Of a stretch of 64,000 nt of DNA, positions 3,237 through 8,191 are shown in pieces. The position numbers were made by a program, and so were the translations under genes. The DNA is from Phycisphaerae bacterium. Lineage in GTDB: Bacteria; Planctomycetota; Phycisphaerae; Phycisphaerales; Phycisphaeraceae. The notes below the pieces were generated by a model, which worked only from the letters and a program-made list of their open reading frames with translations, ran no database searches and had not been told where the DNA came from. Position 1 is the stretch's first letter; every line of letters begins with the position of its first letter. Where the stretch lies: contig JAUHZU010000002.1 of NCBI GenBank assembly GCA_030425705.1, positions 62,001 to 126,000 on the forward strand, in the 5' to 3' direction.

Positions 3237-4625
3237 TTAGTCGTGTGGCATTGATCCCGTGCAGTGTGGGCACGCCTCATGTGCAGCGCCTTCGACCGGC
3301 AGCGTCCCGACGGCTGTGCTGGACTCGATGCCGTCGGCCGGCAACGCGCCCAGGCGCTCCGGCCCATTCAGCGTCAGCACGCCCTCCGCGTCGCGCGTGT
3401 AGTCCAGGTGGAGATCCTCTTTAAACGATGCCCAGCCGTTGGCGTGGACCCGGACCAGGCGGACCTGCCCGCGCTCGCCGTGGAACGCGGTGCAGTCGAT
3501 CGTGAACCGGCCCTCGCCGTCGGGCACGGCCACGTGCGTCGTGGCGTCGTAGTCGCTGCCGCCCTCCGGGTCGAGGTAGGCGATCACCGCGTGGACCGGG
3601 ATGTCGCTCTCGACACGGCCGGTGAGCCGGGTCCCTCTGCCCTCTGCGATCGGCTCGTGCTCGAGGGAGACGTACCGGCTGCGCGGGCGGCGGTTCATAT
3701 CGCGCACCGACCCGCTGAAGCTGGGGTGGACGGCCAGCTTCAGCGCGTGTGCCAGCGTAAGGAACGAGCCGCGCCCCTCGCCGCGCAGCTCCTCGCCGTA
3801 GGTCCGGTTGCCCGAGCCCATCAGCGCGGTGCCCCAGAGGGCGCGTTCGTCGGCGCGCTCCCGGTTGTGCGGCAGGCCGAGCGCGTGGCCCAGCTCGTGG
3901 CACACCCCGCCGACGAAGATCGACTGGTAACGCCCCAGCGAGATGTGGCCGTACTGCCCGTCGCGGAGGTACTGGTCCCGGTCGGTATTGCCCAGCTCCG
4001 CCGCATCAAGCAGGACCGAATCGAGCTGCCAGGCCCGTCCTTCGCGGGACGAGCCGATCGCGTAGTACGGGCTATGGTGGCGCATCGTCCGCGCCGCGGG
4101 GTCCCACACCGTCAGGTTGCAGAACATCACGACCGTGCGCGTGTTGCCGTCGATACCTTCTTCCGCAAGCGCGCGGTTGATGATCTCGCGGATCTCCCGG
4201 CCGTGGTCGCCGTTGTATTCGGCGTTCGGTCGATCGCCGCGCACGACGTGGACTTTGAGCAGCCCGTCGTCTTCGAGCTCGAGGGGGAAGGTGATCGGCC
4301 CGAAGCCGTGGCGGTCCATCTCGTCGGCGTAGAACCGCTGGATGTGCTGCATGGTGCGTGTGAGCCGTTCGCGGTAGTGTGGGGCCGGGTCGGTGTCGCT
4401 GCCGGTGAATAGCGCGATGACCAGCGGCCGTTCGCTGCGGACATCACCGTCGCCGGTGGCGCGCCAGGCCTCGAAGACCGCGCGGGCTTGCTCCGCCTGG
4501 GCGTTCTGCCGAACGATGAGGGGGTGCTGTTCGCCCTCCGCGGTGGCGGGCTCTGCCGCGGCGTTCAGCGGGACCAGGGCCGTGAACGAGGTCAGGAACA
4601 GTACGAGGATGTGCGTGCGTGTCAT
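3237..4625 (-). CDS. Secreted zinc metallopeptidase (HExxH, metzincin-like)
   Basis: The product is about 462 residues from the ATG at 4625, which begins a clean signal peptide (MTRTHILVLFLTSF to the LNAAAEPA cleavage region). The catalytic segment HELGHALGLPH matches the metzincin HExxHxxGxxH zinc motif, and ALMGSG about 25 residues later looks like the Met-turn. A C-terminal part of about 130 residues looks like beta-rich accessory domains. The protein should be an exported protease of unknown substrate. The exact family (M12, M43 or a planctomycete group) cannot be fixed by eye. No Shine-Dalgarno precedes this ATG, so the start rests on the signal peptide. A longer frame up to 4796 would overlap the promoter region and lacks secretion logic. 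Confidence 0.72.
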   Translation of the reverse strand: MTRTHILVLFLTSFTALVPLNAAAEPATAEGEQHPLIVRQNAQAEQARAVFEAWRATGDGDVRSERPLVIALFTGSDTDPAPHYRERLTRTMQHIQRFYADEMDRHGFGPITFPLELEDDGLLKVHVVRGDRPNAEYNGDHGREIREIINRALAEEGIDGNTRTVVMFCNLTVWDPAARTMRHHSPYYAIGSSREGRAWQLDSVLLDAAELGNTDRDQYLRDGQYGHISLGRYQSIFVGGVCHELGHALGLPHNRERADERALWGTALMGSGNRTYGEELRGEGRGSFLTLAHALKLAVHPSFSGSVRDMNRRPRSRYVSLEHEPIAEGRGTRLTGRVESDIPVHAVIAYLDPEGGSDYDATTHVAVPDGEGRFTIDCTAFHGERGQVRLVRVHANGWASFKEDLHLDYTRDAEGVLTLNGPERLGALPADGIESSTAVGTLPVEGAAHEACPHCTGSMPHD

Positions 4626-4761
4626 CGGTCTCGGGTGTTGGGGGGCTGGGCTGCGGGAGGGATGCTCGCCGCGGCCCCGTGTTACGCGGCAGGGCCGGGC
4701 CGGCGGGCGAGTGTATCCCGCGCGCTGCCGGCTGTCAGCACGATGAGCCGGTGGTTTTCCC

Positions 4762-4790
4762 TTGACAACGCCGGCACCACCTAATAATGT
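4762..4790 (+). promoter_or_regulatory. Strong sigma-70-type promoter for the zinc-ribbon/radical SAM operon
   Basis: A perfect TTGACA at 4762-4767 is followed 17 bp later by TAATGT (4785-4790). A better -10 match, AATAAT, lies at 4783-4788 with a 15-bp spacer. The AT-rich block stands out in GC-rich DNA and lies about 37 bp before the ATG at 4827. Confidence 0.6.
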
Positions 4791-4799
4791 ACGCATACA
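4788..4799. promoter_or_regulatory. Candidate operator palindrome at the promoter start site
   Basis: TGTACGCATACA matches its reverse complement at 10 of 12 positions and covers the end of the -10 and the predicted transcription start. That is where a repressor would act. No regulator gene is adjacent, so its partner is unknown. Confidence 0.35.
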
Positions 4800-4826
4800 C
4801 TAACACTACAGGTGGTTGCCCGCTTT

Positions 4827-5372
4827 ATGGAAACCCCGAGCCCTACCCCGCCCGCGACGCCGGCCACGGATTTGCCCGGCCCGCGCGACGCCCCGGCGCT
4901 CCACTGCCCCGGCTGCGGGTACAACCTGCACGGGGTCTGCACCCCGCAGCGGCCGGCGGGGCACTGCCCCGAGTGCGAGCGTGCCTTTGTTCGCGAGCAC
5001 CTGCTCCGTCTCCTGGCCGTGCAGGGCCGGGGCCCGAACCTCATCATCGGGCTGCTCGTTTGGCCGATCGCGACGGCGCTGTTCTGGCCGTTGGCGTCGT
5101 GCTTCTTCGGCGCGTTGCTGCAGGATGCCTTTGGTTTCGGGGTCGTGGTGATCCTCGCGCTGCTGCTCGGGTCCTGCGGGCTGACCGGCTGGTGGCTGGC
5201 GAACGCCTTGGTGCAGGCCAAGCGGGCCGGGCGGGACTGGGACGAGGTCCCGGCGTTCTACCGCCACGCGTTCTGGCCCTGGCTCTTGTTCACCGCGGCG
5301 CACGTGGTGCTCACCGTCGCCTACTTTGCCGGCGGATGCGCGCTGGTGATCTCCATCATCGTCAGCAGCTGA
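4827..5372 (+). CDS. Zinc-ribbon membrane protein, first of two paralogues
   Basis: The 181-residue product has an N-terminal four-cysteine zinc ribbon (CPGCGYNL, then CPECERAF) followed by about four hydrophobic segments (LIIGLLVWPIATALFWPLAS, FGFGVVVILALLLGS, WPWLLFTAAHVVLTVAYFAG and the tail). Ribbons of the type CGYNLxG..CPECG are common on planctomycete membrane proteins; function is unknown. An in-frame GTG at 4812 is possible, but the ATG at 4827 is better placed after the promoter, with a GGTGG sequence upstream. The next gene is a paralogue sharing the ribbon and the FxGGCAL ending. It leads a tight operon with a radical SAM enzyme and an Lgt-like protein, so a role in the envelope or in metal/cofactor handling is plausible but unproven. 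Confidence 0.7.
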   Translation: METPSPTPPATPATDLPGPRDAPALHCPGCGYNLHGVCTPQRPAGHCPECERAFVREHLLRLLAVQGRGPNLIIGLLVWPIATALFWPLASCFFGALLQDAFGFGVVVILALLLGSCGLTGWWLANALVQAKRAGRDWDEVPAFYRHAFWPWLLFTAAHVVLTVAYFAGGCALVISIIVSS

Positions 5373-5391
5373 CGCACGCTACCCCCCCGCC

Positions 5392-5931
5392 ATGCAGGAC
5401 GGACCGCCCCCGACTAGACGCCCAACGATGCCCGGCCCCGCGCCGGCGTGTGCGTGCTGTGGCTACAACCTGACGGGTATCTGCACGCCCGTGCGCCCGA
5501 CCGGTGTCTGCCCGGAATGCGGCACCGTGTTCGAGCGCGCGCAGCTCCTCGAACGCCACCTCGAGCGCGCCTCGTTCCCGCTGAGCTTTGTGGTGCTGCA
5601 GTTGCTGCTGTTCCCGGTCATCATCGTGTTCACCCCGGTCTGCTGTGTCGGCACCCTGTGGGATTCCCTGTTTTTGGACGAGCCCTCGGACGCGGCGATG
5701 ACGCTGGTGTTTGTGGGGATGCCGCTGTTCGCGGCGTTCCTCGCCGGCGGGCTGATCGCCAGGCAGTACTACCCCGGGGCGGTGCTCGGCGTCCCGCCCG
5801 AGCGACGACGCGGGCTGAAGCGGCACATCATCCTGCCGTGGCTGCTGTTTTTCCTGATCGAGGCGGTGCTGGCCGTGGTGTACTTCTTCGGCGGGTGCGC
5901 GCTGCTTTTGGCTGTATTCGGGCTGCTCTAA
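5392..5931 (+). CDS. Zinc-ribbon membrane protein, second paralogue
   Basis: The 179-residue product has the same plan as the upstream gene: a ribbon with CACCGYNL and CPECGTVF near residues 21-45, an amphipathic LLERHLERA stretch, then about four membrane segments ending in VVYFFGGCALLL. The two genes are separated by 19 bp, and the radical SAM gene starts 12 bp downstream, so all three are probably co-transcribed. The pair looks like a tandem duplication. The start ATG at 5392 lacks a clear Shine-Dalgarno; a second ATG at 5428 would also keep the ribbon. No function can be assigned. Confidence 0.7.
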   Translation: MQDGPPPTRRPTMPGPAPACACCGYNLTGICTPVRPTGVCPECGTVFERAQLLERHLERASFPLSFVVLQLLLFPVIIVFTPVCCVGTLWDSLFLDEPSDAAMTLVFVGMPLFAAFLAGGLIARQYYPGAVLGVPPERRRGLKRHIILPWLLFFLIEAVLAVVYFFGGCALLLAVFGLL

Positions 5932-5943
5932 CAGGAGGCGGAC

Positions 5944-7377
5944 ATGGACCTGCTCGCGCTCAACCCCGCGGAAACGACCCTGAAAACCACGTCCAGCCTG
6001 TGCCCGGTCTGCCGGTCGCAGGTGCCGGCCCGTGTGGTACAGCGCGGCCCGGAGGTGTTTCTGAGGAAAGCGTGCCCGGAGCACGGCCGGTTCGAGGCGC
6101 GCATCAGCAGCGATGCGCGCTGGTACCACCTCTCGCTCGGCGCAGACACGGCGGACCGCGGGGGCTGCTGCGGCGGGAACTGCTGCGGCACCGCACCCGC
6201 ACCCATCAACGGTGATGCGGCGGCACCGTCCGCCTCGGCCGGCCACGACCCGACGATCGTCGAGCGGTCCTCGACCTGCATCGCGCTGATCGAGATCGTC
6301 GAGACCTGCAACCTTGCGTGCCCGACCTGCTACGCCGGCAGCGCGCCGCCGGCTAGCGGCGATCCCCATACCGTGCTGCCGCTCGACGACTTCCGCGGAC
6401 GCATGCAGTCGGTCATCGACCGCAAGGGGTTGATCGATATCCTGCAGCTCTCCGGCGGGGAGCCGACGCTCCACCCCGCGTTCTTCGAGCTGCTTGAATG
6501 GTCGTTGACGCACGACCGGATCGGCTACGTCCTGCTCAACACCAATGGCGTCCGGCTGGCGAACGAGCCGGGCTTCATGCAGCGCCTCGGCGAGCTGCAC
6601 CGCCTGCGGCGCAAGTTCGAGGTGTACCTGCAGTACGACGGACCGCAGGCGCAGGGGCAGACTGCGCTGCGCGGCATCGACCTGCGCCGCGTCCGGCAGC
6701 GTGTGGTCGATGCGTGCGCCTCGCGGGGCGTGCCCGTGACGCTGGCGATGACCGTGGACGGGCACAACCAACATCACCTGGGCGACACGGTCCGGTTCGC
6801 GCTGAGCAGCAAGGCGATCCGCGGGATCACGTTCCAGCCGATGTTCGGCTCGGGCCGGGCCTACGAAGGCGTGAACCTGACCGTGGAGGGGGCGGACGCC
6901 GGGGGCTCGGCCACGCGGGATGCGACGGGGGTCCGGCGCCCGCCGACGCAGCGCCTGTCGGTCGCGGACACGGTGCTCGGGCTGATCGACCAGTGCGACG
7001 GGCTGCTCTCGGCCGAGGACTTTACCCCCCTGCCCTGCGGCGACCCGAACTGCCACACCGTCGGCTATCTCGTGCGCCGCAAGGACGGCGCGGTCGGCGT
7101 GTCGAGCATGGTCGACCTCGCGTCGATGCAGGGCTTCCTCCAGGACCGCATCAACTTCGATCTGGACGACCTCGCCCGATGCGGCTGCGAGAGCGAGGAG
7201 CTCGGCGCGGTGCTGAAGCACCTGGAGGTCGGGCCGGACGACGTGCTCCGGCTGTTTATCAAGCCCTTCATGGACGCGTTGACATACGACCAGCACCGCA
7301 TCGACCGCTGCTGCGTGCACGTGGTCGGTGAGGGCGGCCGGCTCGAGTCCTTCTGCCGGCACTACGCGATGCGGTAG
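5944..7377 (+). CDS. Radical SAM protein resembling tetraether lipid synthase (Tes/Mj0619-like)
   Basis: The 477-residue product has an N-terminal cysteine module (CPVC at 20-23, CPEHG at 44) typical of the archaeal Tes family, a Cys-rich linker (GGCCGGNCCG), and a radical SAM core with CNLACPTC at 122-129 binding the SAM [4Fe-4S] cluster and GGEPTLHP at 171-178. Further cysteines occur in LPCGDPNC and in the C-terminal CCVHV...FCRHY, again as in Tes. Known Tes enzymes join two lipid chains by carbon-carbon bonds to make membrane-spanning lipids. That this one does so is inference; other radical SAM chemistry on lipids or proteins is possible. An AGGAGG ribosome site lies 5 nt before the ATG. 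It is followed 7 bp later by the Lgt-like gene. Confidence 0.78.
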   Translation: MDLLALNPAETTLKTTSSLCPVCRSQVPARVVQRGPEVFLRKACPEHGRFEARISSDARWYHLSLGADTADRGGCCGGNCCGTAPAPINGDAAAPSASAGHDPTIVERSSTCIALIEIVETCNLACPTCYAGSAPPASGDPHTVLPLDDFRGRMQSVIDRKGLIDILQLSGGEPTLHPAFFELLEWSLTHDRIGYVLLNTNGVRLANEPGFMQRLGELHRLRRKFEVYLQYDGPQAQGQTALRGIDLRRVRQRVVDACASRGVPVTLAMTVDGHNQHHLGDTVRFALSSKAIRGITFQPMFGSGRAYEGVNLTVEGADAGGSATRDATGVRRPPTQRLSVADTVLGLIDQCDGLLSAEDFTPLPCGDPNCHTVGYLVRRKDGAVGVSSMVDLASMQGFLQDRINFDLDDLARCGCESEELGAVLKHLEVGPDDVLRLFIKPFMDALTYDQHRIDRCCVHVVGEGGRLESFCRHYAMR

Positions 7378-7384
7378 CCCGACG

Positions 7385-8191
7385 ATGCCCAACGACCTGC
7401 ACCAGCCGTTTATTTCGCCGGGCTACACCGCCATGATGGTGGCGGGGCTGGTGGTCGGTGCGCTGGTGTGGGGTCGGCGGGTCGGGGATCGGCCGGAGAT
7501 GGTGGTCGTGCTCGCGTCGGGTCTGGTGGGCGCGTTCCTCGGCGCGAAGGCGGGCTATGTCCTGGCCGAGGCGTGGACGGTCTGGGGCGACGCGGGGTTC
7601 TGGCGGTCGATGCTGGTGGGCAAGACCGTCGTTGGCGCACTACTCGGCGGGTACGGCGGGGTCGAGCTGGGCAAGCGATGGGTCGGCGTCCGCGAACACA
7701 CGGGCGACGCCTTCGCGATCGCCGTACCGGCCGGGCTCGCACTCGGGCGCATCGGCTGCCTGATGCACGGCTGCTGCCGGGGGGTTGCTTGCGACCACGA
7801 CACCTGGTGGGCGGTCGCCGACCACGCGGCCCTCGACGCGGGCCTGGCGTACGCCTACTACTACCCCGCCGCGGTGGTCGAGCTGGTGTTCAACCTCGGG
7901 TGCGCCGCGGTGCTGCTCCTGCTCCGCAGGGCGGGCGCGTTCCCGGGCAACCTGTTCCACCTCTACCTGATCGGCTACGGCCTGTTCCGCCTCGCGCACG
8001 AGCCGCTGCGCGCGACGCCGAAGCTCGTGCCCGGCGTGTCGGTGTATTCGCTTCTGGCGCTAGGGCTCGTGGGGCTCGGGGTGCTGCGCTGGCGGCAGCG
8101 GCGTGTAACTCGGGACCAGAAGCCCGCTAGTAAACCCGCCGACGCGTGTACCACCCGTACAGCAGGAACCCCCCGACCCCCAGCAGGATGA
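7385..8191 (+). CDS. Lgt-like membrane transferase (prolipoprotein diacylglyceryl transferase family)
   Basis: The 268-residue polytopic protein has about seven membrane helices. The conserved region LALGRIGCLMHGCCRG corresponds to the Lgt signature around GRIGNFINGE, but with cysteines and histidine in place of the Asn/Glu. True Lgt moves diacylglycerol from phosphatidylglycerol to the lipobox cysteine of lipoproteins. This divergent paralogue is coupled to a Tes-like radical SAM gene (7 bp apart), so a different lipid acceptor or donor is likely. Start ATG 7385 is chosen because it follows directly on the upstream stop. The 3' end overlaps the convergent DUF3592 gene by 65 bp, so the last 20 or so residues are low-complexity tail. 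Confidence 0.7.
   Translation: MPNDLHQPFISPGYTAMMVAGLVVGALVWGRRVGDRPEMVVVLASGLVGAFLGAKAGYVLAEAWTVWGDAGFWRSMLVGKTVVGALLGGYGGVELGKRWVGVREHTGDAFAIAVPAGLALGRIGCLMHGCCRGVACDHDTWWAVADHAALDAGLAYAYYYPAAVVELVFNLGCAAVLLLLRRAGAFPGNLFHLYLIGYGLFRLAHEPLRATPKLVPGVSVYSLLALGLVGLGVLRWRQRRVTRDQKPASKPADACTTRTAGTPRPPAG

Follow-up and report, generated by a model that had tools for sequence, protein, structure and literature searches.

A candidate protein-modification system that pairs a Tes-like radical SAM enzyme and an Lgt-like protein with cysteine-ended membrane proteins

What would a radical S-adenosylmethionine (SAM) enzyme related to tetraether lipid synthase (Tes), a divergent homolog of lipoprotein diacylglyceryl transferase (Lgt) and two small membrane proteins do together? 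This question is raised by four consecutive genes in a stretch of 64,000 nucleotides, here called the window, from contig JAUHZU010000002.1 of a Phycisphaerae bacterium. The genes lie on one strand with intergenic gaps of 19, 12 and 7 bp, as a reading of this DNA from its letters only had already described. The reading that is best supported is C-terminal lipid modification, at about even odds: we put the probability at roughly 0.5 that the locus encodes a three-part protein-modification system, in which the Lgt-like enzyme would lipidate a cysteine near the C-terminus of the small proteins and the radical SAM enzyme would modify either the lipid or the protein.

We first asked whether the genes stay together. 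Relatives were drawn from the window genome and 60 related genomes, and a scan of genome contigs contributed its 80 best out of 136. After eight duplicates and best matches below 200 bits were dropped, 83 non-redundant loci remained as a core set, mostly from Planctomycetota and Verrucomicrobiota (loci and genomes are numbered below with L and G). A same-strand Lgt-like gene was found in 71 of these 83 loci, within 1.2 kb of the radical SAM open reading frame (ORF) in 67 of the 71, and this pairing exceeds chance. Four of the 12 core loci without an Lgt-like gene end less than 400 nt from the radical SAM ORF, before an Lgt gene could appear.

The association can also be read from the Lgt side. 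Across 196 Planctomycetota genomes, the Pfam model PF01790 returned only the strongest matches and left the paralogue unresolved, and alignment A2, in which three of the sampled loci (L105, L107 and L121) are already included, was used instead. Eighteen of the 21 best Lgt-like matches (at least 118 bits) lay near a radical SAM match, one of them at a distance of 3.8 kb, and on re-reading a nineteenth was placed near one at a contig end in G241. Among 115 Verrucomicrobiota genomes, three carried the radical SAM protein at E 1e-60 or better. The same three held the three best Lgt-like matches, each within 1.2 kb and each at a locus with a cysteine-ended ORF; only two of these cases are independent, because Chthoniobacter flavus was the centre of the sample.

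Beyond the core set, the radical SAM, Lgt-like and cysteine-ended proteins co-occurred in Planctomycetota, Verrucomicrobiota, Actinomycetota and Bacteroidota. The three components thus stay together across phyla, and the gene set is real and patchily distributed. In profile searches, an Lgt-like gene adjoined 16 of 20 radical SAM genes of Planctomycetota that resemble TrsS (L105-L124), and all three components were present on replicons of Mycobacterium, Nonomuraea and Persicobacter. In M. avium, two tandem proteins ending in AGICTGLNPAMYTWR and AGYCTGLNPSDYRSY lie between the Lgt-like and radical SAM genes. A small protein of M. branderi matched three of 72,556 plasmid records, all of which carry the radical SAM gene, and an actinobacterial small-protein query of four records, L125 excluded for its size, returned the two Mycobacterium branderi proteins and one weak match in the Chthoniobacter genome (E 0.5). 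The window Lgt-like protein found no match among plasmids by tblastn, and a profile did find relatives on four of those plasmid records (L125, L128, L129 and L130). In 45 distinct distant loci (from L105-L152), a cysteine-ended protein was present in 17 of 22 with an Lgt-like gene versus 1 of 23 without (Fisher P 4e-7); in all 128 distinct loci the figures were 77 of 93 versus 9 of 35. These counts omit L108, L142 and L149 as repeats of L151, L050 and L011, respectively, and score L129 as lacking a cysteine-ended protein by the counting criterion, though two are visible there.

Other branches of the radical SAM superfamily have a different neighbour. In relatives from haloarchaea and Mycolicibacterium (L126, L127, L131 and L132), a methyltransferase lies downstream, and neither an Lgt-like gene nor a cysteine-ended protein was found in the fetched stretches. 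In the three that were scanned this methyltransferase is of the DVU_1556 type (NF045667). Two of the radical SAM proteins, from a haloarchaeon and from Mycolicibacterium, scored higher on the TrsS model than the window protein (352.5 and 335.5 bits), though under its cut-off of 490, and the methyltransferase next to them falls just short of the NF045667 cut-off. Since the methyltransferase takes the place of the Lgt-like gene at these four loci, partners of at least two kinds occur in the superfamily. In a tree that included 18 of the 83 core sequences, the Lgt-less loci L116, L120, L145 and L152 fell inside Lgt-bearing clades, and their partners have therefore been lost, moved or missed. Three Planctomycetota genomes (G155, G208 and G076) hold seven, four and five distant Tes-like matches, respectively; the single copy read from each (L134, L135 and L133) lacks an Lgt-like neighbour.

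The small proteins had been presented as a duplicated zinc-ribbon pair. Both do carry CxxC...CxxC zinc-ribbon heads and hydrophobic segments and, at 36-37% identity to each other, they are paralogues, but the conserved part is the C-terminal cysteine and not the zinc ribbon. Their common C-terminal motif reads AYFAGGCALVISIIVSS and VYFFGGCALLLAVFGLL. We considered the zinc ribbon as the conserved element and rejected it, as Pfam zinc ribbons were found in a minority of the group and the commonest model, DZR, in 5 of 67. The feature that the group shares is a cysteine, often within FGGC, that closes the last membrane helix about nine residues from the C-terminus. Otherwise these proteins are highly diverse: mean column identity over 67 of them was 8%, blast sorted them into groups of 39, 11, 3 and 2 with 11 singles, and no specific Pfam or NCBIfam family matched the group. 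Near-full matches to window protein 2 in 61 genomes fell at radical SAM loci only (G000 twice, G021 and G040), and five shorter matches covered chiefly its N-terminal part. Up to five candidate small-protein ORFs were seen in other loci. In Chthoniobacter flavus (L065), four cysteine-ended ORFs surround the enzyme pair, two ahead of the radical SAM gene and another two between the enzyme genes. At L028, where no Lgt-like gene was found, the nearest cysteine of the upstream membrane ORF is 26 residues from its end.

Directly upstream of the radical SAM gene, 66 of the 83 core loci have an ORF with a hydrophobic end. A cysteine occurs within the last 30 residues of 65 of these 66 ORFs, and [GAS]C in 58; the single ORF without a terminal cysteine (L041) is the Lgt-like ORF itself. 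When the last 25 residues were compared with those of 27 hydrophobic-ended ORFs farther off in the same loci, a cysteine was present in 63/66 versus 3/27 (P 7e-16), and [GAS]C in 57/66 versus 0/27 (P 5e-16). In the bins covering 6-15 residues from the end the cysteine frequency reached 0.12-0.13, as against 0.01-0.05 in all others. The cysteine lay in that interval in 50 of 65 ORFs, was preceded by G, A or S in 58 of 65, and had mostly F at position -3 (25 of 65). We also compared radical SAM start positions with random anchors, keeping the 79 of 83 loci with at least 450 nt upstream: the signal was found at 57 of 79 starts versus 79 of 4143 random anchors, which may fall on other copies and other frames.

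The charge layout around the cysteine was examined in 119 of 146 cysteine-ended ORFs, the other 27 having no usable uncharged stretch of 14 residues; ORFs of L142 and L149, two loci that duplicate L050 and L011, are still counted here. Mean net charge was +1.85 ahead of the last helix and +0.25 in the tail, with the charge ahead of the helix higher than that of the tail in 90 ORFs, equal in 17 and lower in 12. A median of 23 uncharged residues (quartiles 19 and 25) preceded the cysteine, and the median tail was 9 residues. A positive segment, a hydrophobic helix and a small residue ahead of a cysteine are also found in lipobox signal peptides and in cysteine-bearing C-terminal tags such as MYXO-CTERM. 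Unlike an N-terminal lipobox, the motif here lies at the C-terminus with a short tail past the cysteine, and the N-terminal signal pattern [LVI][ASTVI][GAS]C was not found. MYXO-CTERM tags open with the cysteine-bearing motif, ahead of their remaining part (PMC11980579, in the portion available), whereas the cysteine of the small proteins closes the helix and only the short tail comes after.

The partner enzyme was placed in the Lgt superfamily, in agreement with the sequence-only reading of a divergent Lgt. It matched PF01790 (LGT) at 73.1 bits, above the gathering score of 24.9, and scored 52.4 bits on the canonical Lgt model TIGR00544, below its cut-off of 118.9; the position of GRxGNFINGE is occupied by GRIGCLMHGCCRG. 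A structure prediction from 54 sequences (mean predicted local distance difference test, pLDDT, 90.3) gave seven long helices, and its only PDB match at E < 0.001 was E. coli Lgt, 5azb (Z 15.2, root-mean-square deviation (rmsd) 4.6 over 219 residues; next Z 7.0), so the predicted model recovers the Lgt fold. Eleven residues are listed as essential in E. coli Lgt in the accessible part of PMC13251419: Y26, G99, H103, G142, R143, G145, N146, G154, Y235, R239 and R246. Nine have counterparts in the window protein (Y14, G79, G121, R122, G124, G133, Y198, R202 and R209), and the Lgt-type arginines and glycines are invariant across 54 aligned partners. In addition to changes at the other two essential positions, weighed below, E151 is replaced by Cys130, which is followed by C131. 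A GCC motif was found in 77 of 93 distinct Lgt-like partners, and 15 of the 93 keep the first Cys alone. The same source (again in part) reports that N146C occurs in distant Lgt proteins, MSMEG_5408 combining Y26H with N146C and being presumed of low activity. We found a second type of partner with a histidine at the Y26 position and a cysteine at N146. The host genome encodes a separate canonical Lgt (C16:376728-377648, 189 bits). Two further loci (L159 and L162) have Lgt-like genes with GRLGCAARHCCFG and no radical SAM gene in the stretch, and some 1.7 kb downstream lies a membrane ORF that is cysteine-ended; such loci may represent a variant that dispenses with radical SAM chemistry.

The radical SAM protein had been labelled Tes-like. 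Tes is its nearest relative by both sequence and fold, and that kinship held; as a functional label the name is too strong, as NCBIfam cut-offs were missed and three Tes positions have changed. The protein matched PF04055 (radical SAM, 54.3 bits) and, at its N-terminus, the HMPTM zinc ribbon PF23545 (63.5 bits). The closest solved structure was Tes/GDGT-MAS of M. jannaschii (MJ0619, 7tol; E 2e-35 by sequence and 2e-84 by profile). An AlphaFold model from 46 sequences (mean pLDDT 83.9) matched Tes with a Foldseek E of 5e-34 and a VIA Z of 39.3 (386 residues, rmsd 2.4), the next unrelated entry reaching 19.2. The two proteins also share domain order, a C-terminal RCC..H...FC region, a rubredoxin-type CX2CX20CX2H (C20, C23, C44 and H47 in the window protein) and the radical SAM CX3CX2C (C122, C126 and C129), the last two motifs being invariant in 83 of 83 relatives. 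Of the other well-kept cysteines, C112, C365 and C370 are invariant in the 83, C413, C415, C456, C457 and C471 are kept in 81-82, and C76 and C81 in 77 and 80, respectively. The best NCBIfam match was the TrsS radical SAM (seleno)protein, NF045646 (202.8 bits, cut-off 490), ahead of Tes, NF045702 (151 bits, cut-off 450). Since both scores fall below the cut-offs, the window protein by this standard belongs to neither family, and a plain Tes or TrsS identity was ruled out by the cut-offs together with the residues. Unlike in Tes, the position of C438 is Ile in 79 of 83 relatives, that of Met439, the [Fe4S4]C ligand, is Lys in 82, and that of Tyr459 is Val in 81 (Tes numbering as given in the part of PMC9433317 that was available). 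Of the [Fe4S4]N ligand positions in 18 core sequences, 73 is Cys in all 18, and 77 and 80, which are not kept in the window family, are Cys in 8 and 6; the alignment is uncertain in this region, and C76 and C81 lie nearby. The segment preceding FMDA is shorter than in Tes, and at a guess this reflects loss of the second lipid pocket. According to the same partial source, the Tes variants M439A, Y459F and Y459L keep robust activity; Met439 and Tyr459 are thus inessential in Tes, and their replacement bears on membership rather than on loss of activity. The partners differ from those of Tes as well, being the Lgt-like and cysteine-ended proteins.

TrsS has a DVU_1556-type methyltransferase as neighbour. 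None lies beside the window radical SAM gene, whose neighbours are the other operon genes and, outside these, a putative peptidase, a DUF3592 gene and ABC-transporter genes. TrsS is also listed as a selenoprotein. At L111 (2617-2619), a radical SAM gene with an Lgt-like partner has an in-frame TGA just past a CC pair, which may encode selenocysteine. In Roseibacillus ishigakijimensis (L074:9114-9116), an in-frame TAA directly precedes the conserved CGC of the radical SAM gene and is a nonsense change or a sequence error.

These results can be joined in one proposed mechanism. Lgt has one known job, the lipidation of the N-terminal cysteine of lipoproteins, and canonical Lgt acts on the outer side of the membrane. 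The last helix of the small proteins would reproduce the layout of a lipoprotein signal peptide at the opposite terminus: a positive loop, about 23 uncharged residues, a cysteine often preceded by (F)G(G/A/S), and a short tail. By the positive-inside rule, the higher charge ahead of the helix would place the cysteine at the outer membrane face, where the helix would display it. This signal-peptide-like layout at the C-terminus is why we propose that the Lgt-like enzyme, which keeps residues critical for lipid transfer in E. coli Lgt, would transfer a glyceryl lipid from a phospholipid to the cysteine thiol of its putative substrates. The radical SAM enzyme should be cytoplasmic, as its sequence has no evident export signal (no signal-peptide predictor was applied), and would perform C-H activation, with either the protein or, as in Tes, the lipid as its target. 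We infer both this target and the order of the reactions.

Several observations weigh against this explanation. Canonical Lgt acts on the outer side and the radical SAM enzyme should be cytoplasmic, so a single pathway would need a relay across the membrane. Two essential residues of E. coli Lgt are altered, H103 to Val and N146 to Cys125; both positions vary among Lgt proteins (PMC13251419, available part). In the core loci, a cysteine-ended protein was present in 60 of 71 with Lgt and 8 of 12 without, a difference that is not significant (P 0.22), and the link between Lgt and the cysteine protein therefore rests on the distant loci. Over the 128 loci, 16 of 93 with Lgt have no cysteine-ended protein by the counting criterion, and one is present in 9 of the 35 where no Lgt was detected. 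Lgt-like genes without a radical SAM neighbour occur in G225 (radical SAM gene on another contig), G215 (none found) and G170 (a match below the 21 best). At the G225 locus (L160), the Lgt-like gene and a cysteine-ended protein stand together without a radical SAM gene, and four weaker Lgt-like matches (108-123 bits) come from Verrucomicrobiota genomes without one. Random anchors with a hydrophobic end still gave the cysteine signal in 79 of 186 cases, compared with 57 of 63 at radical SAM starts. The topology is deduced by counting charges, and the way in which ORFs were chosen itself partly imposes the hydrophobic stretch. The conserved membrane cysteine could also bind metal or hold a complex together, and the favoured function would follow from gene order, co-occurrence, residue conservation, predicted folds and helix layout, which are what the data show.

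Of the other explanations, the one that survives best is a lipid pathway, in which the radical SAM enzyme would couple lipid tails as Tes does, the Lgt-like enzyme would handle the head group, and the small proteins would serve as scaffolds or lipid presenters. Tes is the nearest sequence and fold, Tes homologs of Planctomycetota and other bacteria have been read as possible membrane-spanning-lipid genes (PMC11868695 and PMC8941075, both in part), and in the core family the cysteine-ended protein accompanies the radical SAM gene whether or not an Lgt-like gene is detected. However, the score is far below the Tes cut-off, the C438, M439 and Y459 positions are I, K and V in nearly all 83 relatives, and the segment before FMDA is shorter. 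A scaffold would also not be expected to diverge so far while keeping one cysteine, nor to be nearly absent from distant loci without an Lgt-like gene. We consider this explanation unlikely.

Still less probable is a maturation of the peptide type, in which the radical SAM enzyme would cross-link the C-terminal cysteine, through a thioether or otherwise, in the manner of sactipeptide maturases, with the Lgt-like protein as its membrane partner. The maturase SkfB of ribosomally synthesized and post-translationally modified peptides was the second PDB match by sequence and the third in Foldseek, and the candidate substrates are small, variable and often in tandem. The cysteine is, however, predicted at the outer end of the helix, far from a cytoplasmic enzyme; the invariant arginines and glycines of the Lgt-like partners fit catalysis; and peptide maturase models score far below Tes and TrsS. 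Least probable, by a little, is a metal or redox system without lipid transfer, in which CxxxxCC of the Lgt-like protein and the membrane cysteine would bind metal or form redox pairs, as could be suggested by the frequent GCC motif and by the pairing of other superfamily members with DVU_1556-type methyltransferases, for which the next-best models are arsenite methyltransferases, but the lipid-site residues are conserved and 11 of the 15 loci whose partner keeps the first cysteine alone still have a cysteine-ended protein.

The flanks of the operon look unrelated to the four genes (Table 1). Upstream lie a DUF389/Usp gene, a gene for an isocitrate/isopropylmalate dehydrogenase and one for a putative peptidase; downstream is a DUF3592 gene followed by two ABC-transporter genes. 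The putative peptidase (PF12044; window positions 3237-4796, reverse strand) adjoins the operon and looks unrelated. A wider operon was considered and rejected: blast clustering of neighbourhoods yielded chiefly alternative reading frames of these genes, along with the small-protein groups, and among the 25 clusters listed no extra neighbour family occurred in more than a few loci. The promoter once called near-perfect has its two boxes 15 bp apart, and a scan for promoters with 16-18 bp spacers reported no site on the forward strand, so that description is not supported. As a guess, an operon for modifying lipids or lipoproteins is nevertheless plausible, and the refuting conditions set in the sequence-only reading mostly turned out in its favour: kinship with Tes and with Lgt holds, while the functional Tes label, the promoter and the emphasis on zinc ribbons do not.

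Table 1. Positions of the operon features in the window.
Feature	Position	Strand	Basis or remark
Possible weak promoter	TTGACA 4762-4767, AATAAT 4783-4788	+	Spacer 15 bp; read from sequence
Small membrane protein 1, proposed substrate	4812-5372 (from GTG, or from ATG at 4827)	+	N-terminal zinc ribbon
C-terminal helix of protein 1, ending ...AYFAGGC	Cys176 codon 5337-5339	+	10-residue tail
Small membrane protein 2, proposed substrate, paralogue of protein 1	5392-5931 (ATG at 5392 or 5428)	+	Zinc ribbon
C-terminal helix of protein 2, ending ...VYFFGGC	Cys169 codon 5896-5898	+	10-residue tail
Radical SAM enzyme, Tes/TrsS superfamily, 477 aa	5944-7377	+	Pfam, NCBIfam and PDB matches; model
Lgt-like membrane enzyme with seven long helices, 268 aa	7385-8191	+	Pfam, alignment, model

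Literature searches found no description of such a system. Open-library searches, judged from their listings, found nothing relevant that links Lgt with a Tes-type radical SAM enzyme; TrsS was found as a table entry in a single paper; one paper names MSMEG_5408; and a term search of the portion of PMC13274423 available gave neither Lgt nor diacylglyceryl. In the accessible part of PMC11868695, 110 of 684 Planctomycetota metagenome-assembled genomes have Tes homologs and were counted as possible makers of membrane-spanning lipids. Our results show that some Planctomycetota relatives of Tes belong to a different gene system, and they advise caution before every bacterial Tes homolog is taken for a membrane-spanning-lipid gene. 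The finding in this way touches an open question of lipid geochemistry.

A bolder form of the C-terminal lipidation proposal, which we offer tentatively and hold to be rather doubtful, is a second, C-terminal lipoprotein pathway in several phyla. A dedicated Lgt paralogue with an active-site cysteine would place a glyceryl lipid on the cysteine that closes the last helix of membrane proteins that are small and evolve fast; a radical SAM enzyme of the Tes family would then couple or alter the lipid tails to give a radically modified, possibly membrane-spanning anchor. The idea can be tested because Chthoniobacter flavus, with its four cysteine-ended ORFs around the enzyme pair, is cultured. N146C paralogues of Lgt have been noted without a settled role (PMC13251419, in part); the present loci supply an enzyme that accompanies them and, as candidate substrates, proteins in which one exact residue can be tested. 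Together, the system suggests an undescribed route of lipid attachment to proteins.

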